From: Ceratodon purpureus
Taxonomy: Eukaryota; Streptophyta; Bryopsida; Pseudoditrichales; Ditrichaceae
Length of the DNA stretch: 64,000 bases
Assembly: GCA_014871385.1 (NCBI GenBank)
Contig: CM026426.1
Coordinates: forward strand, 64,089,877 to 64,153,876
Direction: 5' to 3'
Shown: positions 2,388 through 57,186 of the stretch, piece by piece
How positions within the stretch are numbered: the first letter of the stretch is position 1
How the letters are laid out: the number at the start of each line of letters is the position of its first letter
Notes under the pieces: model-generated
Databases searched by the model: none
The model's input: the letters and a program-made list of their open reading frames with translations, nothing else
What the model was told of the DNA's origin: nothing
Position numbers and translations under genes: made by a program

Positions 2388-3388
2388 ACATTCTGATCGG
2401 TTGTTTTATGCTGTGAAAGTGGCACTAGTGGGGGGTGCGTCCATTTTGACGGGAATCCTTACCAGGAAGGTTACTGAGCAGCCACGATGTGACCATGCTC
2501 CGTTCTGGTAATCTCCGCCTACTGTCCGTCAAATCGGACACGCTATACTTGGCTAATGCCTTCGAAGGTGGAGGCCCACGTTATGATGCTCTGGCCCTAC
2601 ATGAAATTGCGGAGAGGTAACTTGGAGGGTGAACTTACCAAGAGAACCGCCGAAGCTGCTCACCTTGGCGTGTACTGCGTGGTCAACGGTCAATGTTATA
2701 TCCGGGTTGATATCTTGTGATGTACAGTAACCTGACTAGGATGGATACTCATGTGCCATTTTAGTTATAGTAGATAGCCGGCCGATGTTGGCATATACCC
2801 GATAACATAGTCCGGAACCCCTACAAGCAATCGATGTCCGTCGTCATGTGTATTTATGGTTGATATCCACCAATGTTATTTATAACCACCAATTGAATTG
2901 AAGACCGTTTCAGGTCCGGATGCCCCCCGGTGATGATATACCCGATTTTTAGACTATTGATGACCGAGTAGTTGGATGAGAAATTTATTTCCAGTACGGG
3001 TTTAGGATTCATCCCGACAAGAATTTCCGGGATATACGATTTTTGCGATGAATTTGAGAAGCCTTGATCCCCTGCCAGTAAGATACAGAATATGGTGTCC
3101 GCGACTGTGCCTCAATAATCCCGTCTTGCACGTTTCAAACCATCCAAGCATGCATTCAGAATCACCAAATTACATGTAACTCAAACACCACAGCGGAAGG
3201 ATACAGCTGCATAGAGAACATAGAGTTTTATTGAAATGTGCTGATTCAACATGACTGTTTACATCACACATGAAGGTGCACTTGTATTTCCCAATGGCAG
3301 TGTCTCTTCAAAGTGGGCACAATATAGTAATGAAGCCATCTTCTACAACAGAGTGGTCAGTGACCACATATGAACCTAATCAACTCAG
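2388..3388. other. No gene recognised
   Basis: I see no frame longer than about 70 codons with protein-like composition and no repeat of note. It separates the broken plus-strand gene from the minus-strand ORF at 3389-3859. Confidence 0.5.
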
Positions 3389-6326: not shown

Positions 6327-6327
6327 G

Positions 6328-6365
6328 CGAGGCAGGTTGAGGGGGGCGAGGCAGGTTGAGGGGGT
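6328..6365. repeat. 19-bp direct repeat in transporter leader
   Basis: Two tandem copies of a G-rich unit (cgaggcaggttgagggggg) lie 58 bases upstream of the transporter ATG. They keep the upstream frame open to a TTG at 6337, but no ATG exists there, so the repeat is most likely 5' untranslated. Confidence 0.75.
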
Positions 6366-6423
6366 GGAGCTTGGGTCAAGTTCTGCGGATCGCCCGTGCG
6401 ACATAGGTAGACAAAGAATTTCA

Positions 6424-7902
6424 ATGGGAGACTCTTCTCCTACGGTGCGAGAGGTGAAGTCTGAGTCACTTAAGACCCCTAAGTTGATGATAAGCGATCC
6501 ATGTGGGAAAAAACATGGGCCGAAGCTGGGATTGTTGCCGTTGGTGGCACTTATATTCTATGAAGTCTCAGGTGGTCCGTTCGGTGTGGAAGATTCAGTC
6601 CAGGCAGGTGGACCCCTGCTAGCAATCGTTGGGTTCTTGGTGTTTCCTTTCATTTGGAGTATTCCGGAGGCTCTAATCACTGCGGAGTTGGCAACAACAT
6701 TCCCAAAGAATGGAGGCTATGTTTTGTGGATCTCCGCTGCATTTGGAGATTTTTGGGGGTTTCAAGAGGGCTGGTGTAAATGGATTAGCGGAGTTGCAGA
6801 CAATGCACTTTACCCTGTTCTATTTTTGGACTATTTCAAGCGTGTAGTTCCTATGTTTACAGATGGACTTGAACGCATGATCGCCTTGCTTCTTATAACA
6901 GCCTTGCTTACGTACCTAAATTACAGAGGATTGACTATTGTGGGCATCACAGCCGTGGTCCTCACAGGCTTTTCCCTCATGCCATTTCTTGTTTTGTCTA
7001 TGATGGCGATTCCCAAGATACGCCCGCTAAGATGGACCGAGGTTCACCTCGACAAGGTAAATTGGCGGACATATTTCAACACTCTATTTTGGAACTTGAA
7101 TTATTGGGATTCTGCCTGTACATTGGCAGGCGAAGTCGACAACCCTCAGAAAACCATCCCAAAGGCTCTTGTGTGGGCGGTTATGTTGGTGATTGTGAGC
7201 TATGTGGTGCCATTACTAGCTGGTACGGGTGCCATTAAGTTGGATGATTCAAAATGGGAGGATGGGTACTTCGCAGATGTGGGGCTAGCAATCGGGGGGT
7301 CATTCCTCAAGTGGTGGATTGAAGCCGCGGCTATGTTTTCGAACATGGGTTTGTTTGAGGCTGAAATGAGTAGCGATTCTTTTCAACTTCTGGGAATGGG
7401 AGAGGCCGGAATGTTGCCCAAGATATTTGCAAAGCGGTCCAAGTATGGGACTCCTATCCTTGGAATCCTCTTCTCAGCGTCAGGTGTAATTTTTCTCTCA
7501 TGGATGAGCTTCCAAGAGATTGTGGAGTTTCTGAACTTTTTATATTGCATCGGCATGCTTCTCGAGTTTGCTGCTTTTGTGTGGTTGCGATGGTCGCAGC
7601 CTAATCTAGTGCGGCCGTACCGAGTACCACTTGGCACTATCGGTGTCACTATAATGTCAATACCAGCAACCAGCCTTTTGGTTTTGGTGATGTGTTATGC
7701 ATCATGGAATACCGTAGTAATAAGTTGTGGACTATTGATTCTTGGTCTCCTCGCTTATCCTCTTCTTCAGCATGCGAAGGCTAATCAGTTGATGGATTTT
7801 GTCGATCCAAAGCTGGCGGATGCTTTGCCAGTCGCTGACGATTCTGGTTCATCGTCACCAACAGTGGGTGACGAATCAGAGGCAAGGCTCCTCTCTGGGT
7901 AG
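6424..7902 (+). CDS. Polyamine uptake transporter (PUT/RMV1-like, APC superfamily)
   Basis: This intact 492-codon frame encodes a membrane protein with about 12 hydrophobic segments. Plant PUT proteins (RMV1, PUT1-3) are H+-coupled importers of polyamines and paraquat in the amino acid-polyamine-organocation superfamily and are usually single-exon, as here. Recognisable signatures are the early LPLVALIFYEVSGGPFGVED block in TM1, then AELATTFPKNGGYVLW, GFQEGWCKWISGVADNALYP, the NYRGL turn, and FWNLNYWDSACTLAGEVDNP near the middle. The N-terminal 30 residues and the Ser/Asp-rich C-terminus are probably cytosolic. I start at the ATG 6424 (MGDSSP): the frame is open to 6337, but only through a non-ATG codon. 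It is the only clearly host-type gene in the window and has no close neighbour. The exact substrate cannot be read from sequence; an L-type amino acid transporter role is the alternative. Confidence 0.93.
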   Translation: MGDSSPTVREVKSESLKTPKLMISDPCGKKHGPKLGLLPLVALIFYEVSGGPFGVEDSVQAGGPLLAIVGFLVFPFIWSIPEALITAELATTFPKNGGYVLWISAAFGDFWGFQEGWCKWISGVADNALYPVLFLDYFKRVVPMFTDGLERMIALLLITALLTYLNYRGLTIVGITAVVLTGFSLMPFLVLSMMAIPKIRPLRWTEVHLDKVNWRTYFNTLFWNLNYWDSACTLAGEVDNPQKTIPKALVWAVMLVIVSYVVPLLAGTGAIKLDDSKWEDGYFADVGLAIGGSFLKWWIEAAAMFSNMGLFEAEMSSDSFQLLGMGEAGMLPKIFAKRSKYGTPILGILFSASGVIFLSWMSFQEIVEFLNFLYCIGMLLEFAAFVWLRWSQPNLVRPYRVPLGTIGVTIMSIPATSLLVLVMCYASWNTVVISCGLLILGLLAYPLLQHAKANQLMDFVDPKLADALPVADDSGSSSPTVGDESEARLLSG

Positions 7903-40126: not shown

Positions 40127-40839
40127 TGAAATCCTTCAAACAAAATAATAAAATGTCCACATTGTCAAACATACTCACAAAGAAAAATGATATTGTTTGA
40201 CAATCTTGTAAACTAGGGGATTTTTTAGACTGATATCATCTAGATTACAAGGGATATTTAGGTAATTCTGGACAAAAAAAAGTCCAGAATTCAAAAATGA
40301 CCAATGCGAACTCAGCGGACCGCCGATGGATGGAGACCACAGATGAACAGTGTCATTGTACATGAATACCACAGAATATGGAATGCAAAACTAGACATCG
40401 AGATGTGCATGGGCGGAATTTGCCAGTGATGGATATATGAACCCGAAGATTGCGACATATAATGCAGAATAAGAGTTACAATGAATACTTTAAAGAATAT
40501 CATGTTGATTCAAGTAATGAAATGTACAATACAGAGTCGGCGACCCGCCGATAATAGAACACGCTAAACTAACTAGTCCCGTAGCACTTTGAGTCCTGAA
40601 GTCCTACAACATTAAGTCTACACCCAGCACTATGTACCAAGTTCACGTAAATCCTATCACATTATAACCTACTCTGAAAACTATTTCCCTGAAAGCATAG
40701 CCGTAAGGTCAATGAGTAAATCATATATTTGAAGGCCGCACAAACGGGTCGACCAAGTCGGCGGGCAGCCGATGGAAGGTGTTCTGTTGGTCAGGAGGAG
40801 GGAAGAAGTGCAAGTTGGAGGCGAAAAAGTCCGCCTAAC

Positions 40840-41517
40840 TCAGTCCCAGCAAACTTCAGTCCAGTCCACTCGTGCACGTCCAAACTTTCTCGCAGCTTCA
40901 ATTGCCCAGTGCACTTGCCCCGGCCTACACGCCTGCGCCATATACTCCGGTACAGATCCGAACTTGTGCAAGGGATAAACCAGAGGAAGGATATCTGTAG
41001 CAATGTTAGGTATAACGCCGTCATCGTTCGGAAAGTTTAGATGACCCTGAAAAGGCCAAGGAATTTAGCACATACAGTTTGGTGTCCTCCTCAATGACCT
41101 CGGGTCAACATCCACAAATAGCACCTGATCTAGTTTGCAGACGTTTCTAGACTGTACCTTGGAGCAAACTTGACCTAACGTCTTATAACTCCAGGGGAAA
41201 TTCTCCCGGTCGATAAGGTCACTTCTGCTATACACGAAGGACAGCCTCTCCATTACACCGGCCGGCAGAATATGTGTGAGTAAAGGCTTCAGTTCTCCCA
41301 AGGGCATCTTCGACCACAGACCAACATGGAAATGCAAGAAAAGCATGTCGAAAAGCTTCTTCAAACCTGGGCGCTTCACTACATTCCGATGCGTATCCCA
41401 TGGCAAAGCCTCTGTCCTGGGATCCACATAGCAGAGAAGGCCATTGACGCATAGGACAATACATTTCTTGACATGATGAGGTGGACCGTGAAGGCATTTG
41501 AAATAAAACGAGGAACC
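40840..41517 (-). CDS. NIF/FCP1-like HAD protein, third copy (C), 5' incomplete
   Basis: Exons 41517-41076 and 40994-40840 are joined by an 81-bp intron (GTATGT...CTACAG). The upstream side of 41517 is a good acceptor (TATTCTTCAG), so a first exon is missing; I could not find it in 41518-41826. The protein has the HAD/NIF order: motif I as CIVLCVNGLL (the nucleophile Asp is replaced), the RPGLKKLFDMLFLHF helix, the GLWSKM block, LFVDVDP in place of LVDD-P, and a C-terminal PEYMAQ helix. Plant NIF-family relatives typically carry LDINGLL at motif I. With both acid motifs altered, phosphatase activity is unlikely. A role as binding protein is inference. It is the most diverged of three tandem copies. 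Confidence 0.7.
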
Positions 41518-41826
41518 CTGAAGAATATGAAATGCAATCAGTGAAGGAAATCAAGGAACAGGACGAAGTATATGAAAGAAATGGACTACATTCAAAGTCG
41601 TCGGCGACCCGCCGACAAAACGATGCATTGAAGAAACCTCAAAGGTAAATGTGCAGCAAGTGAAATGTCATGCATGCATCTACAAAAAGAAGTACCGAAT
41701 TGCAGCACTGGAAACAATTGTGTGGTGCAGGGAAGTTCAGAAAGGGAACAGTCTTAGCGTATTAAACTAAAGAGTGCAGAGTATCATATGTGATTTTTAA
41801 AACTAGTGGCGCCGCTGATATAGGCT

Positions 41827-42957
41827 CTAATCAGTCGGCTGCCCGCCGATGATGGAACTACCAGGGGCCTCCGGAGGACAAGGTAAATTCACAAACCAAG
41901 ATCCAGGATTACCCGGGACGTCAAACCCGCATGCATGAGAAGGAATAACCTCCCTATACTTTTGGTATTCGCGAGATTCTGGAAAAAGACGTGGCTTCCC
42001 CACGCTAGAATTCCTCCTACAATACTCCTGGACATCCAATCCAGACTGCTTAAGTCCTGCAAGGAATGGTGTAACTACCCTAGTTAAATAGGGATTGGGG
42101 GTGGCTTGAGGTTCTTTGCACTCTGCAGAGTCCCAGAAAAAAGAATTAGGATGGACAGCGCTAAATGGATGATTAAGTACATTCCTATAAGGGCGGTCGT
42201 CTACCAGTAGGGTATTCTGGACAGTGGCACCTGATCGAGCCAGTAGCCTAGTGTCGCAGAAAAGTCTATCCAGACGCTTCAACAAGTACTCCCGTTTCCC
42301 ATTCGGATTAGTCCTTGTTGACATATCACACCAGAATCCTGGAAGGCGTCTGTAATTGCTCCTGAGCAAAGGATGAATGGCTAACAGCTTCTGGAAGTGA
42401 CGATCGAGATTCTTTTCAGAAACCGTGGACCAAAAGACTACCTCGAAATTCGCCGTGCAGAACTCTAGAAATGAAAGAAGTCCTGGTCTAGCCCGGATAT
42501 GAATTTTTGTCTTCTGGTCATCACCGATATACCCATGGTGCTCCGCGATGAGCAATCCCTTAATGTCAAGGACAAGGTAGTATCGTTGGAGAGGTACCTC
42601 AATATTACGCGCAATAATATCAGTGGTGACACTGACGGAATCATCGCGCGGGGAACCGGTGCGCGGGATCGCGACGTTGGTCTCGACGAACGAGGTGGAA
42701 GCCATCGCACACCGGCCAGAGCTATGTGCAGCAGACAGCGTCGGCGGCCCGCCGACTGGATAGTCGTACTCGTCCTTCCCATCACTTTCATTCTCGGCTT
42801 CCGCTCCCGGAGACTCTTCTCTGAGAGCATCACCATCAGGAGATGTTGGGTACTCCTCCAAGAGCATACTAAGAAGGGAAGGTCCCTGGTGCACCTTAAT
42901 TTCAGCGTCATCCTCCAGTGACTCCTGAAAAATGAAGGACAAATTCCAAGAAAACAT
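41827..42957 (-). CDS. NIF/FCP1-like HAD protein, second copy (B)
   Basis: The open frame from ATG 42957 encodes 376 residues. An alternative is a short first exon at 43067-43041 spliced to an acceptor just before 42924 (CATTTTTCAG), which keeps phase. The N-terminal 130 residues are acidic and low in complexity and include a palindrome copy read as VGGPPT. The HAD domain follows: YYLVLDIKGLL (motif I, second Asp replaced by Lys), ARPGLLSFLEFC, VVFWSTVSEKN (motif II region), REYLLKRLDRLF, and TLLVDDRPYRNVL (motif IV, intact DD). The last residues, IIGGQPTD, and the stop are themselves made by a palindrome copy. The family normally dephosphorylates Ser/Thr on proteins such as the Pol II CTD. 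The altered motif I, similar to the DIN form of plant NIF relatives, leaves activity doubtful. Confidence 0.8.
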   Translation of the reverse strand: MFSWNLSFIFQESLEDDAEIKVHQGPSLLSMLLEEYPTSPDGDALREESPGAEAENESDGKDEYDYPVGGPPTLSAAHSSGRCAMASTSFVETNVAIPRTGSPRDDSVSVTTDIIARNIEVPLQRYYLVLDIKGLLIAEHHGYIGDDQKTKIHIRARPGLLSFLEFCTANFEVVFWSTVSEKNLDRHFQKLLAIHPLLRSNYRRLPGFWCDMSTRTNPNGKREYLLKRLDRLFCDTRLLARSGATVQNTLLVDDRPYRNVLNHPFSAVHPNSFFWDSAECKEPQATPNPYLTRVVTPFLAGLKQSGLDVQEYCRRNSSVGKPRLFPESREYQKYREVIPSHACGFDVPGNPGSWFVNLPCPPEAPGSSIIGGQPTD

Positions 42958-43181
42958 GGGTGATCAATCGCATGCTCACAATTCATACTTGCTCTAGTGT
43001 ACAAATGGAGACACAATAAGACACCCACGACAGAATACACAGTCTCGACACTGAGTTCCGTTCTCATATATTTAAAAGGAGGAAAACTTTATTTACTGAA
43101 AAAGTCTAAATACATGAAGATCCCATCGGCGGGCAGTCGACTGAATCATGTGCATGCTCTCTAAAACAGTTTCTACTTCTC

Positions 43182-43982
43182 CTATGTTCTCTTTTGTTTA
43201 GGGCAATCAATGTGTGGAGAGAAGAGACTATAAGCTTCATCCCCCGGAAACAGACGACGCTGACCGAAATCGGAATGTTTCTGGCAGTACTCGGGCACGG
43301 GGAGTTTGGATTCTTTCAAACTGGTAAGCCAAGGAATCAATTCTCCAAGCAGATAATTCCTCTTACTTTCCGACTCCTTCGACTCGAAGGTATATGGTGT
43401 AGGGTGCACAGCGTTCCAAGGAGTGTTTGCGACATTCTTATAAGGGGAATCATCAACCAAGAGAATGTTAATTGAAGACGCCCCCGTCCCCTTCAGCCCG
43501 TCATCGAGGTCAAAGAGGGTCTGGAGTCTCTTCAAATAAAACTCCCTACTAGCCTTATGTACGCAAGTCTCGCAGAAACTCTGGTCGAACTTGTAGCGCA
43601 CTTTGGCATCTAGACGAGGACAGCGCTGCTGCAACGCTGTCCACAGAATCTGGAACCTCTTTTCCTGAACGCAGCTCCAGAAGACCACCTCGAAATTGTC
43701 CAGGCAGAACTCTAGGAACCTCTCTAAACCCGGTCTAAGTTTAGTATTCCACCTAGTACCCTGCTTCGTCTGGACTAATAGCAGGCCGTTAATATTCAGA
43801 ACCAGAAAGTACTTCAGCACTGGATCGTGTACCTGAGTACCAGCCTGTTCCGGGGCTATGTGAAGTGGATTCAGAGGTGGAGGTCCCTGCTCCAGAACTG
43901 CACTGGGTCTATCTTCGTGAAGTTTTCCATGGACTTCCTTGTCCGCGGACTCTGGAGTGACAGAAAACGAAGCAGAGGACAA
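43182..43982 (-). CDS. NIF/FCP1-like HAD protein, first copy (A), start unresolved
   Basis: A continuous frame ends at TAG 43182. No ATG precedes the domain: the frame opens at a TTG (43982), and a splice acceptor (GTCACTCCAG) lies just before 43951, so the first exon is not identified. The HAD domain reads KYFLVLNINGLL (motif I with Asn in place of the nucleophile Asp), KLRPGLERFLEFC, VVFWSCVQEKRF, REFYLKRLQTLFDLD, NILLVDDSPYKNV (intact DD) and a C-terminal PVPEYCQKHSDFGQRRLFPG. It aligns along its length with copy B and is the likely product of local duplication of a captured host NIF-like gene. The loss of the nucleophile predicts a catalytically dead protein. Palindrome copies lie on both sides (43125 and 44003). 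Confidence 0.75.
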   Translation of the reverse strand: MSSASFSVTPESADKEVHGKLHEDRPSAVLEQGPPPLNPLHIAPEQAGTQVHDPVLKYFLVLNINGLLLVQTKQGTRWNTKLRPGLERFLEFCLDNFEVVFWSCVQEKRFQILWTALQQRCPRLDAKVRYKFDQSFCETCVHKASREFYLKRLQTLFDLDDGLKGTGASSINILLVDDSPYKNVANTPWNAVHPTPYTFESKESESKRNYLLGELIPWLTSLKESKLPVPEYCQKHSDFGQRRLFPGDEAYSLFSPHIDCPKQKRT

Positions 43983-44076
43983 ACGTGACGGTTAGGATGA
44001 CGGTCGGCGGACAGCCGACTTGCAAGCAACATTATTTGAAAAAAGGGAAAGCGTACAACTTGGCATTTACCAAAAA

Positions 44077-44082
44077 TTTATT
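44077..44082 (-). terminator. Polyadenylation signal of the ParB/methyltransferase gene
   Basis: AATAAA on the minus strand, about 50 bases past the stop codon at 44129, in a short T-rich context before the next palindrome at 44003. Confidence 0.5.
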
Positions 44083-44128
44083 CATATTTGGCAGTACAAA
44101 CATCTAACACAATCCTAGAGCCCGATCA

Positions 44129-47100
44129 CTACACTAAATTATCAATGCAGGCATTTAAAAGATGGACTGGGCCACCGCCTGATTCACTGACCTCCACCTT
44201 TGTGCTTCTTCGGCCTAGGCTCCCGTTGGATGCCCGCACAGGTGACAGAACGTCCTCTGGAGCGTCCACATTCCTGGGACTCATGAGCAGATCCCCAGAT
44301 GTGCCCTTCTTGGAGGAAGTCTTCTTCGAAGCAGCCTTCCGTTTGCCCTTCCCAGAGGACTCCTCCCCTTCCTCAACCCCTGAGGAATCACGGGATAAGT
44401 TACCCACAAGAGAGGAATCCTGAGCAGTACCATCGGTCTTACTTCTCTTCATTGATCGTGTCTTGACCAGAGGGTTCTCATCCGGACCAATCATCCGAGT
44501 TGCGCCCTTCACACCTTGAGTGACGAATGCGATTGACTTCCCTGTCAACTTGGTCTTGGCAGAGGGGTTAGATGAGGTTTGCTCGTCTGCCGTCGGCTGC
44601 CTGCCGACGGCAGCAGGAGGAACATGCCCTTCAATGCTCACTGCAGGCTCCTGGGTTGGCTTCTGGACACGGCGAACCACTTCGTCGTCAGGCCTCGATG
44701 CTAGAGGAACCTGCATCTTCTTTGGACGCCCCGCCTGGTCTAAATCACGTTCTGGCTCGGCGGGAGGAGTCCCCTGCTCTTGAAATGTAGGAGAAATAAT
44801 ACCGAAGCTGAGGGAGTCAGTTCCGGTCTCCCGTAGAACTTGCGACAGCGGTGGGTTCACGTAACGAGGATTCGATTCTTCCAGTGGTAATTCGTCGGGT
44901 TCTGGTTCATAGTCTAATTCCTCCGTGTCTCGCTCCTCTACCTCTGCATCTCCAGTTGTAATGAAAGCCTCAGCTTGGTCGTCCTCGTTTCTTGGCTGTT
45001 CCTCACCATCTCCAGCTTCATCTTCAACGTCTGGGTCGGGTACATCTGGTGGCTCCTCGTCGACATTGTCGTCCGAGTCCAGATAACTCTGTGAGCGAAC
45101 CCCCGCAGTCTTCCCCGAACCCATACATCCACCCTTCCCGACCAAATGGGCCTCCTCCGCATTCACACCCAAGTCGGCAGCCGTGAGAGAGCCAGTCCTG
45201 CCTCTAGCAGAGGCGGGGACAGACGGCCCGGCCCCAGACTGCGTGGTCTGAACTGGAGCTTCGACGGGCACGTTATAAACGCCCGGAATGAACGTCATAT
45301 TCCAAACCCAACAGTGCGCTTCGTATCTCTCTTCCTCGGTACGCACGATCTCAATTACAGTCAAATGGTTTTTCTGCAGCAGAACAAGACGAAACGGTTA
45401 AGGAAATCTTCTACCCAAGAAACACGAAGGATTCTATCAGCGTCGGCTGCCCGCCGACGATCGGTGAGCAAACAGCGAAGGCACCAGAAGAGACTGCAGT
45501 AACTTACCAGAGCGAGGGCCGTGACGTTCCCCCCTCCCCTGCAATTGATCACCCGAACGTCCTCAATCTGCATCGCTTTCTCCAGAAGAGATTGGAGGAA
45601 AGAGAAACTAGCGTGGCAGTGTCCATATGACCAATCCTCCCCAAGATGATCTTCTCCTTCGTCCACATAGGGAGGAAGCGGACGTTTCAAACCAGTGAAG
45701 TCCGAGAAGGTATTCCATGCATCCCCGGGCGTTGTTCTTGGATACATAACGGACACATGAACCTTGGGTCTAGAGTCAATGAGAGAACTCCTTTGAAACC
45801 CGGCGGAACTATCAGGGAAGTACTGCATAGTATGAACCGTCCACGAATTACTCGTCAGCCTTGACACGCCTTGAAGAGTGTGATTACACTCAGCATCGAG
45901 TAGCCACAAGGATGGGGTGACAAGCTTATTCACCTTAATTGTATCTACCTCCCCATCCAGAATGACCTCCTCCTCCACCTCACAGTGAATCCTCTCAGCG
46001 ACAGTTATAACGTGTTGTTGTCGCATGTTAGGCATCTCCTTTCCCGCTGGATCGTAGCCAAAGACCACGAACATCTCATACTGCGCCTTGTTGAAGGAGA
46101 ATGCTCCGCGAACGTCAAGAGCTGTGCACACTTCACCCAGGTCCTCTGCAATCCGAACATCGAACTGTACAGACGACTGCGAAGACTGGTCCACATCCGA
46201 CTTCCAGTACTTTTGCACAATGTCTTTGAAGAATTCTGGTGTTGGCCCTTGCGACGGCGTGAGCGGATGATTCCGTCCCTTAAGCCACTCCTTCCCCTCA
46301 GGACTATCTTCCAAGTCAGCCCGAATATTACTAACCATTGTATCATTGAACCCCTTCTCGACTTCAAGGGAATTCCAGTCATCCATGGTCCACTCAATAT
46401 GCTTCCCAGTCCCTGGTTTCTTCAGTGCAAAGCCCCTGTAAATACACATGAGCTCGTTCCGGACAACATACTCAAATTTCACACGCTTACACCAATTCTC
46501 CACTGATGTTCCATCCCGTTGAACCACCTCTTTCCCAGTGACCTTGACGTACACTTTAAGGTCCAGAATTTCCTTGGTCAGCCTCTTGCATTCGTGGTCC
46601 CGAAGACCGATCACGTACTGCATGTCGTTGAATGTTATGTCCCGGCGGGCTGGCTTTGGGGGAAATCCTGGTTTCAGACCGTCCTCCCCGATGATCCTCC
46701 CCTCCTCCCAGGCGTCGAACACCAGTTGCCACTCGTTGTATGTTTCGTCAGACACGAAGACTAAGGGCAACTTGAAGGTTTGGGACGTAGGGGACTTTCC
46801 GAGAATCGGACTGAGGTACTCCTTGCAGAACTCCTGCAAGGAAGAAGAAAATGACATTGATAAATAAATCCCACTTCGGCAATACGGAGAACCACTTGAG
46901 CGTCGGCTATCCGCCGACGACTTTCAACTACTTGGAATCAACAGGAAAAGAGGAAGATGTGAATTACCTTCCATGCGCTGTAGTCATCTTTCTTGTCGAT
47001 CCTCCCCCGCTCGATCCATTTGGCGCGCATCTTCGCCAGCTGGGACCTGAAACTTACTTCGGCGACTTTATCCTTCACCTCGATGTTTAATGCGTTAGAG

Positions 47101-48931
47101 ACCTTAATGAGGGTATCCTTGTCATCAGCATATACAGGAATGATGTCGTGGTTAAGGTAATACTGCCGCATAGGAGAGTCCAGTGGTTCCTTCTCTCCCA
47201 GTTCTCGACAAGCCTCAAATGTGTGCTGGCCCCCAATTATGTACCAGTGGATGCCCTCATCTTCATACCAAGGTACCAGCTTAGATGTGCCGTCATCCAG
47301 TGTAAGTGAATACTGGATATTTAGGACATGCCAAGGTCGAAGAAGTCCTTCCAAGCCTTTAAGCTTAATCTCGCCCGTCACTGGATCCTTTACTCTGGGG
47401 TCACCACTCATAGGAAGGCAGTACAGCTTGGGCTTCTTCCGGATTGCTCCAAGTCCTTTGTAGAAAAGACTTATCTGATCCTGCCTCTTCCTGAATATCG
47501 CTCTGTACTTGAATTCGTCGGGAGCTATGTGTATACTGTTATATGGAATCTGACAAGGAAGGGCACGTTGCCCGTTGGGGAAGCAGTGCCCAAGTCCCTC
47601 CTCCAACGTCTGGTACATGGCAAGGACGTCGGTGTCCTTTGTTTTGGAAGTGAGATTGTTTGCGAGCATGAGAGCTTCCGCCACGGTCTGCTTCTTCTCT
47701 TCCTTCTTCCCACCTTTCTTCTTCCCACCGTCGCCCTCAGCAGCCGCTGCCTTTCCCTTCTTCCTTCTCGATGACTCCCCTATCGTCTGTGTCTCTCCGG
47801 TCTCGGGGGTGACTGTACCAGTGCCCGCTTCTACAGCAGACTTGCGGCCGCCTCTTTTCTTTGCTGAAGGCTTAACCAAGTTCTTCGTCTTCTCTTCCAT
47901 CACTTTGTCCCCGAGCGTATCAATCACGTCGAGTATCTGTTCAACAGCTATGTTCTCGCCCCAGCCCCAAGTAGCCGCATCCTGTACTTCTTTAGAGCAC
48001 AAGCCGTCCATGCACTTCTCAACCGGAATTACAACCGCGAAGCAGTCCACTGGTGTGCCCTCCGCGACAGGAACCGATGCAAACACCAAGAACACGTTGT
48101 CCTTATCCTCGCATTCCCTGGCACCAATAATCTCAAATCTTGGTCCACCTGCCATTTGCTTCTGACCTATTTTGGTCACGAAGCCCAGCGACATGGGAGT
48201 GTCACGCCAGGTGATGCCCCAATCCGTTATCTTCGAATCAGCAAGGAATGTCACCCTCGGTTTCAAGCCCCGTGCGAGTATTTCTACTTCAGGATCAACA
48301 ACCTTGTCACAGAGCCACCGTAACCCATTCGGTTTTGCGGTGGAGTCGACCTTCGCCCTGCAAAATTAGAATCACAAGATTAGACCATCAGATTCTCACT
48401 CCATCGGCGGACAGCCGACGGGGCGGATGGACACGCCCTCCCCATCGGCGGACAGCCGACGGGGGGAATAACCCATGTGAGAAAATAGAAATATGAAGGA
48501 CTCAGAAAGGGGTGGCGTCGGCGGTCAGCCGACGGGAGGAACAACCCCATGCGCCAGAACACAAAACATGAAGGGCAAAAGAAGGGGTCACGGCGTCGGC
48601 GGACAGCCGACGGGAGGGACAAACTCATGCGAGAAAACAGAAACACGAAGGACAAAAGCAGGGGTGGCGTCGGCGGACAGCCGACGGGAGGGACAAACCC
48701 ATGCGAGAAAAATGAAGGACTCAGAAAGGGGTGGCGTCGGCGGTCAGCCGATGGGAGGAACAACCCCATGCGAGAAAACGGAAACATGAAGGGCAAAAGA
48801 AGGGGTGGCGTCGGCGGACAGCCGACGGGAGGGACAAACCCATACGAGAAAACGGAAACATGAAGGACTCAAGAAGGGGAGTGTCGGCGGACAACCGATT
48901 GGACAACTTACCCACTCTCGGAGGCTGCCAT
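44129..48931 (-). CDS. ParB/DGQHR-like domain fused to degenerate N6-type DNA methyltransferase fold
   Basis: Four exons join in phase: 48931-48912 (MAASES plus two bases), 48357-46968, 46833-45508 and 45373-44129, giving 1326 residues. All introns are GT-AG (GTAAGT, GTAATT, GTAAGT donors), and each holds a palindrome. Domains: a conserved N-terminal part (8-165), a Lys-rich linker (167-232), then a ParB/DGQHR-like core with WYIIGGQHTFEACRELG (GGQHT at 382-386) and IPVYADD...VSNALN at 413-431. A long middle region follows. Around 885-925 the string LLEKAMQIEDVRVINCRGGG, then NVTALAL and VIEIVRTEEERYEA, matches motif I of N6 methyltransferases, but the usual DPF is NCR and I see no DPPY. The acidic, Ser/Lys-rich tail has an AT-hook-like GRPKK at 1127 and a basic patch. 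ParB-methylase fusions are known in phages and bacteria. A nuclear DNA-binding role is likely; methylation activity is doubtful. Confidence 0.75.
48403..48899. repeat. Intronic tandem array, units of about 74 bp each carrying the palindrome
   Basis: Eight palindrome copies are spaced 41, 73, 78, 74, 67, 74 and 73 bp apart. Between them lie near-identical spacers (ggagggacaaacccatgcga, then aaaacagaaacatgaagga and aaaagaaggggtggc). The array fills almost all of intron 1 (48911-48358) of the ParB/methyltransferase gene. The apparent frames in it on both strands are by-products of the G/C-rich unit; the period is not a multiple of three. Confidence 0.9.
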
Positions 48932-49940
48932 GGCGTCGGCGGATGGCCTTTCACCGTCGGCGGATGACCCTCGAACAGCAGCCGACGCGCACAGGTGAAG
49001 GAGCCGACGCCCTCAACCCTAGCAGCCGACGTAGAAAAACCTAGCAGCCGACGCGACCTCTGCGGAGCGCTGAGAAGAGGACAAAAGAGAGCTGAAAAAG
49101 AGAAGGCTGGAAATGAGGAGGAAATGTCGGGAGTGGCGGGTGTATACCCTGCAGACCCCCACCTCTCGAGACTGAATCGTCACGCCCGATGGGTCATGTC
49201 GTATGGCTATGTACATACCATCCATGCATGGATGGTCATCCCTAACATCCGTCCCATCACGCCACGTAGGATGATGATGGGACGTCTTTTGACTTTTTTT
49301 CAATCCGTCACCAAGTCATGATGGCGTAGGCATGTGATGTGACAGCTGCTCCAATCGCCACGTTTAAATTCGTAATAATGAACTAACATTGTTCTGTGAC
49401 GGCGGGGGTATCTCGCCGCCATGATGAAATCTTGATCTGTCCAAGGCGCGCAAAATTGAATTCGATTCTGGCGCCAATTTGTACTCCTGGGAATTCATAA
49501 CTAACCCCCCGTCAGATGCGCATACTTCATTCTATTTCTATCATTGCACTTTCGATTCCCTCTGAGAGTGCTCCTCACGCACACGTTTCCTGAGAGGACC
49601 GTTATTATTCCCGCATGTGCTTAACTGTCCCGCACCTTCTGTTGCCGTTTCTGTTGTCTTCGTTTATTGTTTCTGATTGGACGGTTGAGAGGAGTCTCTG
49701 ATTGGACAGGTTAGGGACATCATACTGCTTCTCAACTAAGGTCCCCTGCAATTTCTGTCAGCGGACGTGTCCGTCATCGTCGGCGGATGCTATTTCTGTG
49801 CACACTCCGAGTTGTACGATCCGCGTCGGCTGCCCGCCGAGTCGTCTTCGTTGTCGGCAGATACATTTTACTCCGTCGGCGGGGACACTTCCCGTCGACC
49901 CTGTCGGCTGTCCGCCGACGAGGTCTTCATCTTTTATCCA
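48932..49940. promoter_or_regulatory. Divergent promoter/leader region between the two large genes
   Basis: The two start codons (48931 minus, 49941 plus) face away across 1.0 kb. Both leaders carry palindrome halves: gtcggcgga at 48935 and 48956 and gccgac at 48981, 49003, 49025 and 49047 on the left; half sites at 49779 and 49875 plus full copies at 49825 and 49903 on the right. The central 700 bp (49055-49760) lacks them and holds a perfect 20-bp palindrome. I could not assign TATA boxes. Confidence 0.65.
49217..49236. promoter_or_regulatory. Perfect 20-bp palindrome in the divergent spacer
   Basis: ACCATCCATGCATGGATGGT is fully self-complementary and lies near the left-centre of the spacer between divergent genes. 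It is unrelated in sequence to the GTCGGC family. The core CATGCATG matches the RY element bound by plant B3 factors. Confidence 0.55.
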
Positions 49941-52900
49941 ATGGAAGTAGAGCCGATCGAGACGTTTCTAAGGAATGGCCGATCAGGGCGGTGGAAGGTT
50001 GAAAAGGGCATTGTCGTGGCCCTTACTCATTCTGGGCTCTATTATGCAGGCAGGGCAGTGATCCAACGTGTTGTAGAATTTGATCCTATAGTGGTGGTGG
50101 TAAAAGTGATTGAGGTTTCAGACAGCATGGAAATGAATATACCATTTCCGGATGAGGGTGTGAAGTCCTTGAGCAACTGCTTAGGACAAATGATATTGTG
50201 GGAGGCGGCCGACCTCAGGCCTTTCGGAGAGGTGGAAGACGATGACATCAAGGCCGTCGGCTGCCCGCCGACGGATGTTGAAGAAGATGTCAAGCCCGTT
50301 CAAGAATTCCTGGACCTCGCAGAGCAGATGGAAGTTGCGCTCCTCGAGGAATCCGGAGGCTCAAAGCGTTGTGTAGCCGCTGGAGTCATTATGGAGTGCT
50401 CTCCTAAAGGAACGTGGGAGGGGTTCTTGATTCCTCACAGCTTCTTTCTAATAGTGAGAGTGTCGTCCGTCAATCCAGAATTCTCTGAAACACCTGCTTT
50501 CTGCGAGTTACCGGATGTGTTAACGATCGGGTGTGCTGTGGGGCGATTGGTACTTTGGAGTGGATACAAGGTCTGTCCACTTGTGAACGGCCCGTTGGCT
50601 GGCACATGTCCTGTCGGCTGCCCGCCGACGGAGCCTCACTTGGGGTACGAAGATGAAGAAATTGATGAAAGCAACTCCGCTCCGTCTGAGCAGGATCTGG
50701 GGACTAGGTCTCCAATGAATATCAGCAGTGACGACGATGTGTCTAAACAAGGGGAATCCGACGTAGAAACAGATGATCATTGTTGGGGTCCGGATTCCGG
50801 GACCTCGGGTACTCCTTCCACTCCAGATGCTTCTTATCCTGACCGCCACCTCTGGAGAAATCGGTATGTCGAACTTCTTAATGATGATCTATCAGTCCGT
50901 GGTAGAGCAATGATTCAAGTATGTTTACCGGACGAGGCATGTGATGATGAAGTCCTAGGGGATACAGAGGTTGGGGTTCTCTTCGTCTCCGAAGACGATC
51001 ATCTGCAGATGACAACTCTCAGATGGCGTCTGACTCACACTCGGTTAGAAGGGGGTCACCTTCTCTCTGATATAATTACTTACTGCTCCGAGAATTTAGC
51101 AGACGCCGACGCGGACGATGGTCTGGATGGTGTCCCGAAGAATGCCTATCGATCGGTGCGGAGGAAAGTCCGCGAAAAAGATGACGTCTCTTCCACTAAG
51201 CTTCGTCGAATGGTTGTCCCTGCTGAATGCCGCTTAGTGAGCTCAAAGCGCTGTTGCAAGGACCGATGTTGCCAGACTTTTAGATGGGAAGATACTGTGA
51301 GTATTCGGCGTAAATTTTACGCAACAACATTCCAGGCGAGGCGAGAGATGTCCTTCGCTGTGCAAGGGCACTTACATACTGTACCCGGCAAGCGGAAGCT
51401 CTATGTTACTCTTGCGAACGTTGACGTATGTGAAGTGGCGTGGTATATCATTCACGGAGTATCAAAATCCGCGTACTACAGCTACAAGGCTGCGGCCCGA
51501 AGTGGTCGTGTCAGTGGGAGTCACGGAAATTCCGCTGTACATCGTCCCCAGATTCACACCATCCAGGCCCGCGCGACGTTGACCACTATCGTTAATGAGA
51601 ATGCCGACCAAATGCCCAATGAGTTTCGGATGATTGGCAAGAAGAGAGTGGCCGCGCTCAAAGTACTCCCGTCTGCGATGAACTGGAATCACATGCGCGA
51701 AATGGCCAACGCCGTAAGTTCCTCCTCATCTTCTTTCACTTTGGATAGTTTACTGAATTGTAGTGATTACTATCGTCGGCTGCCCGCCGACTGGATGACG
51801 AACTTCCCAACTGATCGACCTCACTCTGTGCTATTCAGGTCAATGAGCAGTGCAACGCGAAGCTGATTTCGCAGTCCTCCGTTAGTCGCATGAGGAAGGA
51901 GTACTTCCGCAACGTTGAGGTCAAGGCAGTAGGAAGTAATTTCTCCAAGTGCACTGAGTGTGACTTCCTCGTTGAACTCATTGCCAAGTATCCAAGAGGG
52001 TCGGACGAGTGGCAGAGCTTGACAGAGGATAGGACCAGGCATTTGAACTATCAGCGAGCTTGTCGCAACATTTATTACGGATGGACAACCCAATCTATAC
52101 AGAGTCCTACTGAGTTCCTATGCATCATACATGATAAGATGGACACATCGAAAACAGCGATCCCCCGCATGCAACGTATCACGAAGGCTACGGCAGGGCT
52201 TGGTCAAATTCCGATTTCCTGTACTGGAATGCTGACTCACGGTCACGGAGATGGCTCCTACGCACACTATGCAACTGCCCTGTGGCCAGGAGACCCAAAT
52301 TTCACAATCTCCTCGTTGTGCAGGGTATTCCGTGCCTTGGAGAGACTACCTGTCCGGGAGTCAAAAGCACTCTTCGAGGCACCGCCACACAATGAATTCT
52401 TTGCAGCGCTAATGCATGGATCGTCACGTTGCATCCCCTCAATTCCACCTTCTAGAGATGAGCCACTCACTCCACCTCTGCCTGGTAGGCCTGCTGTTCC
52501 TTTGCCGAAGAAGTTGTATCTCCAGCTTGACAATTCTGCGAAGGACAACAAGAACCGGTTTCTTCTAGCATTCTGCTCATTGCTGACGGCGAGGCGAATA
52601 TTCAAGGAAGTTACAGTTGGTTTCGTGATTGTGGGACACACACATGAGGACATCGACGCCCACTTCAGTCACCTATCGAAACTCATTAAGCGAAAGAACA
52701 CATACTGCCTTGCAGACCTTATGAAGGCATTCATGGATTCTCAGAAGACAGTTGCCTTTATTCCAGAGGTTGTTCAGGAAGTGGCACACTTCAAAAGTTA
52801 TGTTGCTGATTTTCATCACGACGGAGGTAATGCGATAGAAGGTCACAGTGAAATGCATCTTTTTAAGTTCTATGTAGTGGAGGATGGGGAGGATGCGGGG

Positions 52901-53851
52901 TGGCCCGTAATGAGGTACAAGAAGCGTGCAACTGATCCGTCATGGCTTCCACCTGGCAAACCCGTGAAAATGTGGAGGGCAGACAAAGAGGGTAAACCAC
53001 GTTTGCCCGTCGGTGATCCCAAACCGGTTCCTCATAAGCACTTATGGGGTAGTGTTGAAGTCGATGAGGGCAAGAAGAACGCGGATAAAGAGGTGGCAAG
53101 GGCAGCGGAGTGTTTAGAGAAGAGAAATTTCATTAAAAGTGGATTATCTAAGTACATTGAGTACTGGAGAACTGGCATGGCTCGGGATAAGAAATACGCA
53201 CAAGACATGTTACCATATGTACTGTATTGGGAGCGAATTTTAAAGGAGGTCAACGAGCCACTGCCCCCCAATTCCGCCACCTTACAGGAAGGATTCTGGC
53301 CTATCTCAGACTGGAAGCGGGACCACGTCACCACATTCGATGCACAGGACGAATATATACCGGATCCGGATATTCGTCCCGGTGACGAGGATGAGGTGGA
53401 GCCCTATCCTTTCTGTGGTCCGAAAAACTCTAGGCCGAAGTCTGTGTTTAACCCATATCGTGACGTTTTACGTGGCGATTGGGTTTTCTGTCGTCCGTGT
53501 AAGGAAGACCACCTACCCATTTGGATGGGTAGGGCGATAGAGCCTGTTATAACAGAGCCTGGTCCTAATTACGGTAAGTTCAAGGTTGAATGGTGGACTC
53601 CGATGAAGGGCAAGAAGGAAGGTAAGAAGAAGGTTGCGAGAGAGTGCTGGACAAGACGGTGGGAAAGGGAGTTGACTCTTGCGGAGTGGGTGGAGTGTAA
53701 ATCCGTTGTATACACTCATAGGACCAAGAAATCTACGCATGAGGGGCCCCCAAAGTCCCATCTAATACCCGAAGATGTTGTGATTGCTGCCATGGCAAAC
53801 TTCGAATCGCATGGACTCTCGATGAACTGGAATGACGAGGAAGAAGACTAG
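49941..53851 (+). CDS. DUF7869-type DDE/RNase-H-like transposase
   Basis: Two exons, 49941-51713 and 51839-53851, join in phase (GCC|GTAAGT...CTATTCAG|GTC) to give 1261 residues. I start at the first ATG (MEVEPIETFL); the frame upstream is open only through a GTG. The N-terminal half has two or three repeats of a beta-rich unit ending in ILW or VLW (about residues 10-95, 130-210 and 305-360), like the DUF8039 domain of plant transposon proteins. Next are a Cys cluster (KRCCKDRCCQTFRW, about residue 437) and a VSKSAYYS...GSHGN region. The catalytic half shows IIHDKMD (689-693), LYLQLDNSAKDNKNRF (Asp about 822) and VGHTHEDIDAHF (860-864), which fit the three acidic positions of this DDE-like family. 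Palindromes inside exon 1 encode VGCPPT twice. Probably the mobilising enzyme of the element; the open frame suggests it could be functional. Confidence 0.82.
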
Positions 53852-54501
53852 TCGGCTGCCCGCCGACGATTGTGATCTTAGCTGTAGAAGATGTAGCTAG
53901 TGATGGTTTCCTCTGTAAACGTTATAGTTGAATATTGTAAACACTGTGATTCCTTCGAATAAGAATTGTATTCTACCATAGACCCAATACTAGTCATGTA
54001 TTACGCTTTGTCTTCTATTTGTTGTTCTGATGCCTTACTTTTCCTTCTTCGGTGGTCGTCGGCTGTCCGCCGATGCCTCTAACCATGTTAGATAAGCATC
54101 ATGAACGGTGACTTTGTGAGGCTGGTCTATATTGTATGGCCTGTGATTTTTACGGTGGACACTGTTACTCTAGTCGGCTGCCCGCCGACGCTTTCCACAA
54201 CATTGGTAGAACCACTATGCGCTTTGAGAAACTGGGAAAAAATATTTATCCATTTCATTATATTCTTATCGGAGTACAACGGTAGTGTTCCGCCCTTTAC
54301 ATGTTACTTTGTATTGTGTATACATTAGAGATGCCACTACTCCTAAAGCCTCAGTAACAAATGCTAACCATGAATTCTACAACTATCCGAGAGTGTGAAG
54401 CAGCTCTATTGAAAACGAGCTGGACAGTTCTAACACACAGTAATTCACCCTAAAGCCAAAAAACCAAAAAGCTGCATATGGTCGCCAACGCCATGAAGCG
54501 A
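53852..54501. other. Transposase 3' region
   Basis: Holds the 3' untranslated region and two further palindrome copies (54058, 54173). No additional gene is seen. Confidence 0.5.
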
Positions 54502-55023
54502 TCAGTCCTTCGCAGTAGACTTGGCTCGGACAGCACTACACCCAGTATCGACGGATGGATGCACGGATCCAAACAACGAATACGTGGACTGCGGGCTTGC
54601 GTTCCCTCCGCACCACTGATCTTGGCCAGAGCACCGACTTCCAGCACCCTCCAAGTTGTCGTATGCTTCGCCAACAATGCGGAGCCACCCTGCAGTTGAC
54701 ATGGTTTGCGTTGACACCTCCCCTGTGTGGCTGAAGTGAACGCTGCCAACACTCTCGGACTCCTCAGACTCCTCGGACTCCTCGAATGTCAGTGGGAAGG
54801 CGATGCCGGAAGCGTCAGCGATCTCCAACAACTCTATGGTGTGAGCAATACTCCAAAACCACACCGCACCTGGCTGCAGAAGGCGTGTGATGTATCTGAA
54901 AGCTGGAATGGCGGTGTTGCGAGAACGGGCGACCACCGCCCTATACCATGGCCGGAGCTCCTCGAGGTCAGCCGGTGACTCCTGATAACCCAGTGGTCTC
55001 ACATTGCTACCCCGCCTCACCAT
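54502..55023 (-). CDS. Hypothetical 173-aa protein in the right arm of the element
   Basis: This intact ATG-initiated frame runs toward the transposase gene. The N-terminal 85 residues are protein-like and partly helical (SPADLEELRPWYRAVVARSR, then AFRYITRLLQPGAVWFW and AHTIELLEIADASGIAFPL). They are followed by an acidic ESEESEES repeat, a Ser/Thr-rich region and a Cys/Gly/Ser-rich tail. I recognise no family. It sits between palindromes at 54173 and 55105, hence inside the presumed element, and could be a small accessory protein. The low-complexity second half might instead be out-of-frame reading. Confidence 0.4.
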   Translation of the reverse strand: MVRRGSNVRPLGYQESPADLEELRPWYRAVVARSRNTAIPAFRYITRLLQPGAVWFWSIAHTIELLEIADASGIAFPLTFEESEESEESESVGSVHFSHTGEVSTQTMSTAGWLRIVGEAYDNLEGAGSRCSGQDQWCGGNASPQSTYSLFGSVHPSVDTGCSAVRAKSTAKD

Positions 55024-55120
55024 AACGACAAAATATTGGACAATATGCGAGTAACTTCTACAGTATGCGACCTGCTTCTACAGTATGCGACCTTCTTCTA
55101 CAGTGGACAGCCGACGAGTT
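55024..55120. repeat. Short tandem repeat ending in a palindrome half-site
   Basis: About three copies of cttctacagtatgcgacc (20-bp period) precede a ggacagccgac half-site at 55105. Confidence 0.7.
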
Positions 55121-55200
55121 CGTCTAGTAAACTGGTAAACGTTCTAGTAATCCACTTCTTTAGGGTTTTCTGGACGACTAATTGCCAACGTCGACCTAGT

Positions 55201-55400
55201 CTAGTAGCCCCTACTCCTCTACTCGGCTGGTAGCCGACTAGGACTAGCCTACTCATCATTTGCATTATTAGGACTAGGACTTATGTACTCATCATTAGGA
55301 CTAGTAGCCCCTACTCTCCTACTCGGCTGATAGCCGACTAGGACTAGCTTACTCATGATTTTTATCACTAGGACTAGGACTTATTTCCTCATCATCTTTA
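55201..55400. repeat. 100-bp tandem duplication with diverged palindromes
   Basis: The unit beginning ctagtagcccctactc at 55201 is repeated at 55301 with few changes. Each copy carries a related hairpin, TCGGCTGGTAGCCGA at 55223 and TCGGCTGATAGCCGA at 55323. Another variant, GTTGGCGGCCAGCCGAC, lies at 55455. Confidence 0.85.
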
Positions 55401-55683
55401 TATGTATTTCAGATTCCAGAGGTCGGTTCAGTGAGGAAGAGGTTGGCTCTCCTAGTTGGCGGCCAGCCGACTACAAAGGACTTCCATTCGTTGTGACCGT
55501 GAATACTGTTCATTCTAAACGACGACTCCGGAGTCCACACAGACGGACACCCCAATGTGAGATGCCTGGCAGTCGTGTCCACTCAGCGGGTCGCCGACGA
55601 TCTTCCCTTCACCCGCTTCACTTCACAGATCCACATTTTGCAGAGCAAGTATTTCCTTTTATTAGAACAGATAGATTTCTAAG

Positions 55684-55740
55684 GATAGGGTTTCTAGGGT
55701 TTAGGGTTTCTAGGGTTTAGGGTTTCTAGGGTTTAGGGTT
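55684..55740. repeat. Telomere-like (TTTAGGG/CTAGGG) tract
   Basis: About seven GGGTTT-type units alternating with a CTA variant. This matches the plant telomere repeat in degenerate form, in interstitial position just right of the last palindrome-related sequence. Confidence 0.85.
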
Positions 55741-57186
55741 CTCAGTCAGCCACTGGCCGAGAGATTCGGCCATGACAGTGGGACTGGGATGTCCTCTATT
55801 CAACATTATAATAAATTCACTCAAATGATTTTATCCCTTGTAAACGGAATGCATTTTTTCATAAATATTTGACATCTTTGTCTTTAAATTTGAGGGATAA
55901 CACATGAATTGGACGTCTACTGATGATGCAAAGTAGTCCATAATTGAGCGTTTTGTCCATAATTACTTAAATACCCCTTTTACTGACATGATCTTCATCA
56001 ACGGCAACCGCCTTCTCTACCTGGTAGATCAAAAGAGCTATGAGAGCGTTGAACATTTCAATATGTGGCTCCAAAGGTGCTACATAGCGATTGACATTGT
56101 GACAAGCCATGATAGAAGACCCTGAGACAAACAAGTTCCACATAATTATCAGTAGTGTACACAATAAATCGACATTGAGTAGAGAAGTGGATGTGAACCA
56201 CATACATCATTCCAATTTATCGTTAGAAAAGCATAGTAACCAAAAGGGACTATGTTGAATAGATATTTAAAAATTAAAAACATCATGAACGGACACAACA
56301 AGGCTTTGCGGTTTACATCCAACTAGGCCTGTCAGTCATAGAATAAATTTATGATATAATGGATTATTTTTAATGGGCTTACTAAATAGGCTTATTAAAT
56401 GGCCTATTTGTGATTTAATGGCTATTAAATCAAATTGGAAGTACATCAAAATTATATCGTTCCCTCCTCTGAACCAGAACACGCAACCTCCAGGTAAAGA
56501 GTCACCATTTAGTTAACACAATCCAAAGCTATGAATAATTACAAGAAACCTTCTAACCGCTAGATGCTGTTGTCTTGAAAACAATATCACCACGCCAGGT
56601 TGAAGCCAAAGCAAGCATCTGCCTAAACGTCATTGATATCTCTCGAGGGCCTTGCCATGCCACGTCTCCATTCATGTGTTGTTCCTCTCTTGTGACAATA
56701 TTTGGCAAACAGTCATCAACGGCAACGTCCACTCCTTTCCAATCAAGAGCGGAAATTTTCTAGAACTTGAAGTTGGAATCCCTGAGGTCCTTCATTTTAC
56801 GTACAACAAGGCATATCCCATCCCCCGAGTCTGTTACATTCAACATAATGTCAAAAATTTAGAAGAAGCGCTGGACCGAGTACTTCCATACAACAAAACA
56901 TGCAAGTTTGGAAGAAGTACAGAAACGGCATTAAAATTAAGAACAAGAAAATAAAAATACTTACACTCAGAAGTAGGTTAAGTCCAAAAGTAAGATGGAG
57001 GCGGTTCATCCCCCTCAACTCCTTTCTAATTCGGAACCTGAAGTCTTCAAATAACCCAACATGTTGGATATCTTGGTCCCTCAAAAAGGATGAATTATGG
57101 TCATAGCACCATCATCTTGCAGGTGTTGATCACCTAATTCAAATATTAGATTTGACCATATCTTGGAGTCTTGGTTCCAAGGAACG
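55741..57186. other. Non-coding, AT-rich
   Basis: No gene recognised. The short frames at 56575-57106 overlap on both strands and lack protein character. Confidence 0.45.

Follow-up and report, generated by a model that had tools for sequence, protein, structure and literature searches.

The window analyzed here, a 64,000-nucleotide stretch of the genome of Ceratodon purpureus (GenBank assembly GCA_014871385.1, contig CM026426.1, positions 64,089,877 to 64,153,876 of the forward strand), contains a DNA transposon of 15.7 kb that encodes a transposase with a DUF7869 domain and a divergently oriented gene with a ParB-type motif, and that carries 31 copies of one palindrome. We refer to this transposon and its copies as F1, one of several DUF7869 families in the genome. 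The palindrome patterns described below suggest, with a probability of roughly two in three (0.66), that F1 is a Sola-type transposon whose palindromes are sites for a protein encoded by the element, with a role in transposition, in regulation or in both. This confidence is tempered by two points: for F2 and F3, two of the other DUF7869 families, a single end was found, and conservation was measured in copies that had been selected for identity.

Palindromes of the F1 element

All 31 palindromes detected in the window (GTCGGC-N5-GCCGAC) fell within the F1 element and none elsewhere in the window (Table 1), as an earlier annotation made from the sequence alone (hereafter, the original prediction) had claimed. 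The number expected was 0.81, and none of 100 shuffled sequences reached 31. Genome-wide, the palindrome occurred at 2858 sites compared with 3 for the reversed control. With the degenerate site at 40311 included, the 32 F1 sites comprised 15 intergenic, 11 intronic and 6 that overlapped open reading frames (ORFs). The 24 sites that were not part of a tandem array had arms with 1.66 bits/position and flanks with 0.04 bits/position; the arm value is partly high since the sites were picked by their arms, and the information comes from the dissimilarity of the flanks. Two sites in the transposase frame (50256-50272 and 50613-50629) encode a repeated peptide, VGCPPT, so these palindromes are tolerated in a coding frame.

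Palindromes of related families and of a short derivative

Several DUF7869 families were distinguished in the genome by frame length and by the range of the profile matched in a Pfam search (best 150 of 1401 candidate stretches). Counts from the protein, DNA and family searches of this study (91 of 619, 124 of 889, 150 of 1401, 40 of 223, 40 of 332 and 40 of 366) cover the best-scored candidates and are lower bounds. The F2 and F3 transposases were 85% identical to each other and about 33% identical to that of F1. The F2/F3 palindrome, TTTAGCTCAC-N-GTGAGCTAAA, had 446 exact sites genome-wide (control, 0), and among the 50 sites listed, 49 were within 25 kb of a DUF7869 match and one was at 33 kb. 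The F3 sites, judged by eye, also had unlike flanks. A different palindrome, GGAGRCATATGYCTCC, was associated with family F8; its 23 sites (control, 0) formed seven clusters, five of which were located about 2 kb upstream of a DUF7869 domain. The largest cluster of like dyads contained 20 members in F1, 41 in F2, 17 in F3, 5 in F8 and 2 in F6, and the controls gave at most 3 in four other parts of the window and at most 2 in 10 shuffles of each of three stretches. The palindromes are family-specific among the DUF7869 families, and the F1, F2 and F3 stretches, which carry the two best palindromes, each contained a gene with the ParB-type motif.

A non-autonomous 381-bp element (locus L082) had the same kind of terminal repeats as F1 and a target-site duplication (GTAT), and was without any gene. 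It contained a perfect palindrome at a distance of 57 bp from the left end, and close to the right end there was a degenerate one. All 40 scored copies of this derivative (best 40 of 366 candidates) were approximately full length with 93-100% identity. The exact palindrome with a 9-bp anchor occurred 52 times and was present in 27 of the 40 scored copies, a count that requires the anchor to be intact and treats a changed anchor as a miss. The derivative palindrome was present in all four short stretches read and there was none at the aligned end of F1. Retention of the palindrome in the derivative favors a role in transposition over pure marking.

The ends of F1 (left, 40249-40290), F2 (L068, about 2980-3035) and F3 (L070, about 3600) had a common layout, in which bases 22-25 of the terminal repeat read GGAC and a short hairpin comes next; the outer bases differed.

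Structure and mobility of the F1 element

The F1 element is a complete, multicopy (more than 100 copies) and recently mobile DNA transposon. One multigene transposon had been predicted at 40311..55597, which was right in kind and slightly short in extent, as the inverted repeats enclose 40249-55979. The inverted-repeat pair was 88% complementary over 32 nt, and TTAC flanked the element on both outer sides. The terminal-repeat pattern was found 186 + 173 = 359 times genome-wide, with derivatives counted in, and 0 times for the control; derivative-type ends accounted for 26 of the first 100 matches listed. The genome consists of 362.5 Mb in 151 contigs, and nearly all listed matches were on contigs C1-C13, of which C6 (110.5 Mb) contains the window.

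Recent activity, which had been raised as a possibility, was evident from the near identity of the copies. Thirty-two of 40 scored left ends (best 40 of 223 candidates, the window's own included) were identical over 251 bp. In the next 1.4 kb, outside the part by which copies had been selected, 28 of these top-scoring copies had a median divergence of 0.91%, with two odd left ends (L008 and L015) left out. Shared ends, inverted repeats and target duplications, proposed as a check, were found across copies as 29-bp repeats and exact 4-bp duplications. The 30 left and 30 right loci fetched were the best scoring, which skews them toward near-identical sequences, and the window's copy supplied one left and one right locus. 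Fourteen of the left ends were matched to a fetched right end and the other 16 were unpaired; among the 14 paired copies, 10 had exact duplications, two had none, one was imprecise and one had a masked flank. The refuting condition named with the original prediction, transposase copies without the ParB, HAD and palindrome parts, was checked and did not hold: the HAD ORF was scored in 124 copies (best 124 of 889 candidates) and the divergent gene in 91 (best 91 of 619), and the palindrome occurred at 2858 sites.

Two copies lacked a duplication of their own. The right flank of the copy at C12:2168171-2183982, TTGA, matched the left flank of an upstream copy at C12:2046883 (loci L006, L007 and L039), and the right flank of the copy at C10:5507473-5523337, AGTC, matched the left flank of an upstream copy at C10:5459975 (loci L014, L015 and L056). 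These matches suggest recombination between copies or composite transposition. The right ends of the two odd copies (L007 and L015) were sought in loci L065 and L066 and were not found there.

Table 1. Coordinates of F1 features in the window
Feature	Position	Strand	Basis
Left target-site duplication, TTAC	40245..40248	.	Read from sequence
Left terminal inverted repeat, 29 bp, AAGGGATATTTAGGTAATTCTGGACAAAA, small hairpin next to it	40249..40277	+	Inverted-repeat pair
Degenerate palindrome, 3 mismatches, 62 bp from left end	40311..40327	.	Within the stretch used to pick copies by identity
31 palindromes, core GTCGGC-N-G-N-C-N-GCCGAC	40536..55761	.	Pattern search, up to 2 mismatches
HAD_c, NIF-like ORF, motif I CVNGLL	41065..41550	-	Pfam PF03031, E 3.4e-5
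Palindrome present or absent as a clean 19-bp unit between near-identical copies	41600..41616	.	Aligned copies
HAD_b, NIF-like ORF, motif I DIKGLL	41827..42963	-	Pfam PF03031, E 6.5e-10
HAD_a, NIF-like ORF, motif I NINGLL	43182..43991	-	Pfam PF03031, E 5.5e-12
Divergent four-exon gene, 1326 amino acids (aa), putative ParB-type motif IGGQHTFEACREL	44129..48931	-	Gene model without stops
8 palindromes, most of them in tandem repeats of about 74 bp each, in intron 1 of the ParB-like gene	48403..48899	.	
DUF7869 transposase, exons 49941-51713 and 51839-53851, 1261 aa	49941..53851	+	Gene model; Pfam PF25273, E 1.3e-42
Right terminal inverted repeat, 29 bp	55951..55979	-	Inverted-repeat pair
Right target-site duplication, TTAC	55980..55983	.	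Read from sequence

The transposase and the divergent gene

The two large frames, of 1261 and 1326 aa, were intact, as anticipated. The predicted DDE-like transposase matched DUF7869, and this label, given by a profile, is firm. Blocks HDKMD, LDN/ADN and GHTHEDID were alike in all four DUF7869 families aligned, with invariant Asp residues, and these blocks may contain the catalytic residues. Searches of PDB with single sequences and with a four-family transposase profile gave nothing useful, and the name DUF7869 was not found in the literature searched. Sola elements are characterized by a 4-bp target duplication, terminal inverted repeats and an acidic triad in an RNase H-like transposase; F1 has a 4-bp target duplication and 29-bp inverted repeats at both ends.

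The gene predicted to encode a ParB/methyltransferase fusion is indeed a divergent frame without stop (exons 48931-48912, 48357-46968, 46833-45508, and 45373-44129); its ParB assignment is putative, based on one motif, and the methylase received no profile support. Seventy-nine of 91 scored copies of its main exon were free of stops (best 91 of 619 candidates). The motif reads IGGQHTFEACREL in F1, INGQHSIVASQEL in F2 and INRQHSIVAS in F3; the F2 and F3 stretches also contain the divergent gene. Profile searches of Pfam, NCBIfam, PHROGs and PDB did not support a ParB domain, and hhalign comparison of the F1-F3 proteins with YbdM, SopB and P1 ParB was no better than with seven control proteins, a weak test with few sequences. 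The same four collections gave no match to a DNA methyltransferase domain, a result of low power since these profiles also miss ParB; a stretch that may be a degenerate S-adenosylmethionine-binding site was seen by eye. Inspection by eye and with a regular expression did not find a ParB-motif gene in the approximately 5 kb upstream of F8.

Beside the F2 ParB-motif gene, a pair of large ORFs (L077, 2051-5820) contained DDE-like and SWIM-like stretches by eye and resembled a Mutator-like transposase; the first ORF of the pair had no Pfam match.

Possible roles of the palindromes

We infer binding to the palindromes, the identity of the binder and the effect of binding from the patterns given above. 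The palindrome would be bound by an element-encoded protein, most likely as a dimer, and the binder would be the transposase itself or, as an accessory to it, the divergent ParB-like protein. Palindromes near the ends would have a cis role in transposition, and through the arrays in introns and close to the divergent genes the same protein could find and regulate its own family. A palindrome that differs in each family would permit each family to recognize its own kin. An extension of this proposal, in which DUF7869 (Sola-type) transposons possess a family-specific palindromic address code that is read by their own ParB-like protein, a eukaryotic parS-like self-recognition with palindrome and reader co-diverging and separating co-resident families, is tentative and we give it rather low odds.

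Several observations weigh against element-encoded binding to the palindromes or against the comparisons on which it is built. Many F1 sites are in the middle of the element, in introns and even in ORFs, unlike purely subterminal transposase sites, and the palindrome at 41600 was cleanly absent in 16 of 31 aligned rows. CpG decay in copies picked for near identity was not lower in the F1 palindromes (2.6% vs. 2.1%), and other changes at CpG amounted to 2.2% in palindromes vs. 3.8%. Among the other families, the F8 sites belong to a minisatellite in which the flanks are conserved too and are weaker evidence, and the 10.5 kb read of F6, for which a similar terminus was seen at one end, contained no cluster of palindromes. 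The F3 motif reads NRQH where those of F1 and F2 read GQH. The ParB-motif gene and the transposase of F2 and F3 probably belong to one element, as judged by proximity and with only the right ends found. Lastly, F1 is described as a cut-and-paste transposon, probably of the Sola type, in view of a 4-bp duplication and a gene layout that fit general Sola features.

Epigenetic self-marking is a possible explanation that we regard as doubtful. In this model the ParB-like (possibly methylase) protein would load on the palindromes and shield or mark the element so that the host does not silence it, in the manner of VANC proteins on VANDAL elements, and the transposase would not use the sites. The location of the arrays, intronic within the divergent gene of F1 and beside both genes in F2, resembles that of VANC targets, and the co-occurrence of the ParB-motif gene with the two best palindromes in F1, F2 and F3 is also consistent with marking. 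However, the gene-less derivative retains a palindrome near its end, which marking alone does not require, profile searches detected no methylase domain and CpG decay at the palindromes was not lower. It is improbable that the palindromes are a structural or mutational by-product, either as hairpins or insulators or through spread by local duplication, without a binding protein. Tandem arrays, the clean 19-bp presence or absence of one palindrome and the minisatellite of F8 would fit such an origin, but the 24 non-array F1 sites are alike in the dyad and not in the flanks, and what is conserved is the sequence, in a family-dependent manner, and not symmetry alone. A cargo element of the Starship or viral kind is suggested by the 15.7-kb size and the extra genes and is very hard to reconcile with the inverted repeats, 4-bp duplications and DUF7869 transposase, with phage families that gave no significant match (best E 0.058), with 10 F1 ORFs that had no Pfam match to a tyrosine-recombinase captain, with viral contigs in which no relative of the transposase or the ParB-like exon was confirmed, and with translated phage records that yielded either nothing or three matches with E values no better than 0.7.

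Relation to known systems

The original prediction regarded the combination of genes as apparently undescribed, which does not hold, as a Sola element that carries a ParB-methylase gene divergent from its transposase has been published for Ectocarpus (PMC12477816). This element, Sola1-1_Ec32 (21.5 kb), has a gene on the opposite strand whose product is described as ParB-like with a DNA methyltransferase, and its authors suggest that the product binds and modifies its own transposon (PMC12477816). By its description, as distinct from its sequence, Sola1-1_Ec32 resembles F1 as a large Sola-type transposon with a ParB-like gene opposite the transposase; it is longer than F1 (21.5 kb vs. 15.7 kb), NIF-like cargo is not mentioned in the passages that describe it and "palindrom" appears 0 times in the main text (PMC12477816). 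Our search of the literature, by titles and the beginnings of abstracts, found no report of palindromes or subterminal sites in Sola elements. Neither the element type nor its accessory gene is new; what appears to be new, as far as the literature searched goes, is the family-specific palindrome code.

VANDAL elements are Mutator-like. In Arabidopsis, the targets of VANC are tandemly repeated; they are located within VANC21 and VANB21 introns and also upstream of VANA21, the transposase gene, and related elements have different targets (PMC5735166). These VANDAL targets are like the F1 palindromes in being short, family-specific, intronic, often tandem motifs that change between families, and the VANC21 motif is unlike the F1 palindrome in being 9 bases long and non-palindromic (PMC5735166). 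Here, too, noncoding DNA contained family-specific arrays that changed from one related element to another, with 6 of 32 F1 sites overlapping ORFs; the VANC domains DUF1985 and DUF287 had no Pfam match at E up to 1. In Spm/En, a CACTA element, the accessory protein TNPA binds repeated short subterminal motifs for transposition and regulation. CACTA elements have CACTA ends and a 3-bp duplication, and their motifs are subterminal and not spread across the element as in F1. ParB/parS partition systems (F plasmid, P1) are like F1 in that a ParB-type motif is encoded beside dyad DNA sites, but no profile similarity was found in our small hhalign comparison.

The means by which co-resident transposon families distinguish their own copies and withstand silencing have been worked out closely for few elements, such as VANDAL and CACTA. 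The presence of several related families with different palindromes and of a 381-bp derivative in one genome makes a code of readers and sites testable. If true, the palindrome code would point to a function for the ParB-type genes that algal transposons are reported to carry.

Cargo genes and flanking sequence

The three HAD-like genes of the original prediction matched Pfam NIF (Table 1). Motif I of HAD proteins carries the catalytic nucleophile Asp, and by this rule HAD_a and HAD_c appear to lack it. The three NIF-like ORFs are probably cargo and more likely encode binding or decoy proteins than phosphatases, because two are without the usual catalytic Asp. NIF-like ORFs were not found in the F2 stretch read. 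Genome-wide, 95 of 124 scored HAD_b copies were without a stop (best 124 of 889 candidates). In a selection test from which copies more than 12% from the majority were removed, HAD_c, one of four stretches tested, had a nonsynonymous deficit of 0.51 (29 of 31 rows; P 0.028, P values uncorrected), the short HAD_b tail had no deficit (6 nonsynonymous vs. 1 synonymous) and a noncoding control stretch gave 1.36 (30 of 31 rows). An ORF at 54502-55077 was dropped as a gene since it contained stops in the majority of copies. Twenty-four of the 27 least similar scored HAD_b copies were on the window's contig, as if it retained old copies; this contig makes up about 30% of the genome. Outside the element, an intact ORF of 534 aa at 6298-7902 resembled a plant amino-acid/polyamine transporter by eye and is probably a host gene.

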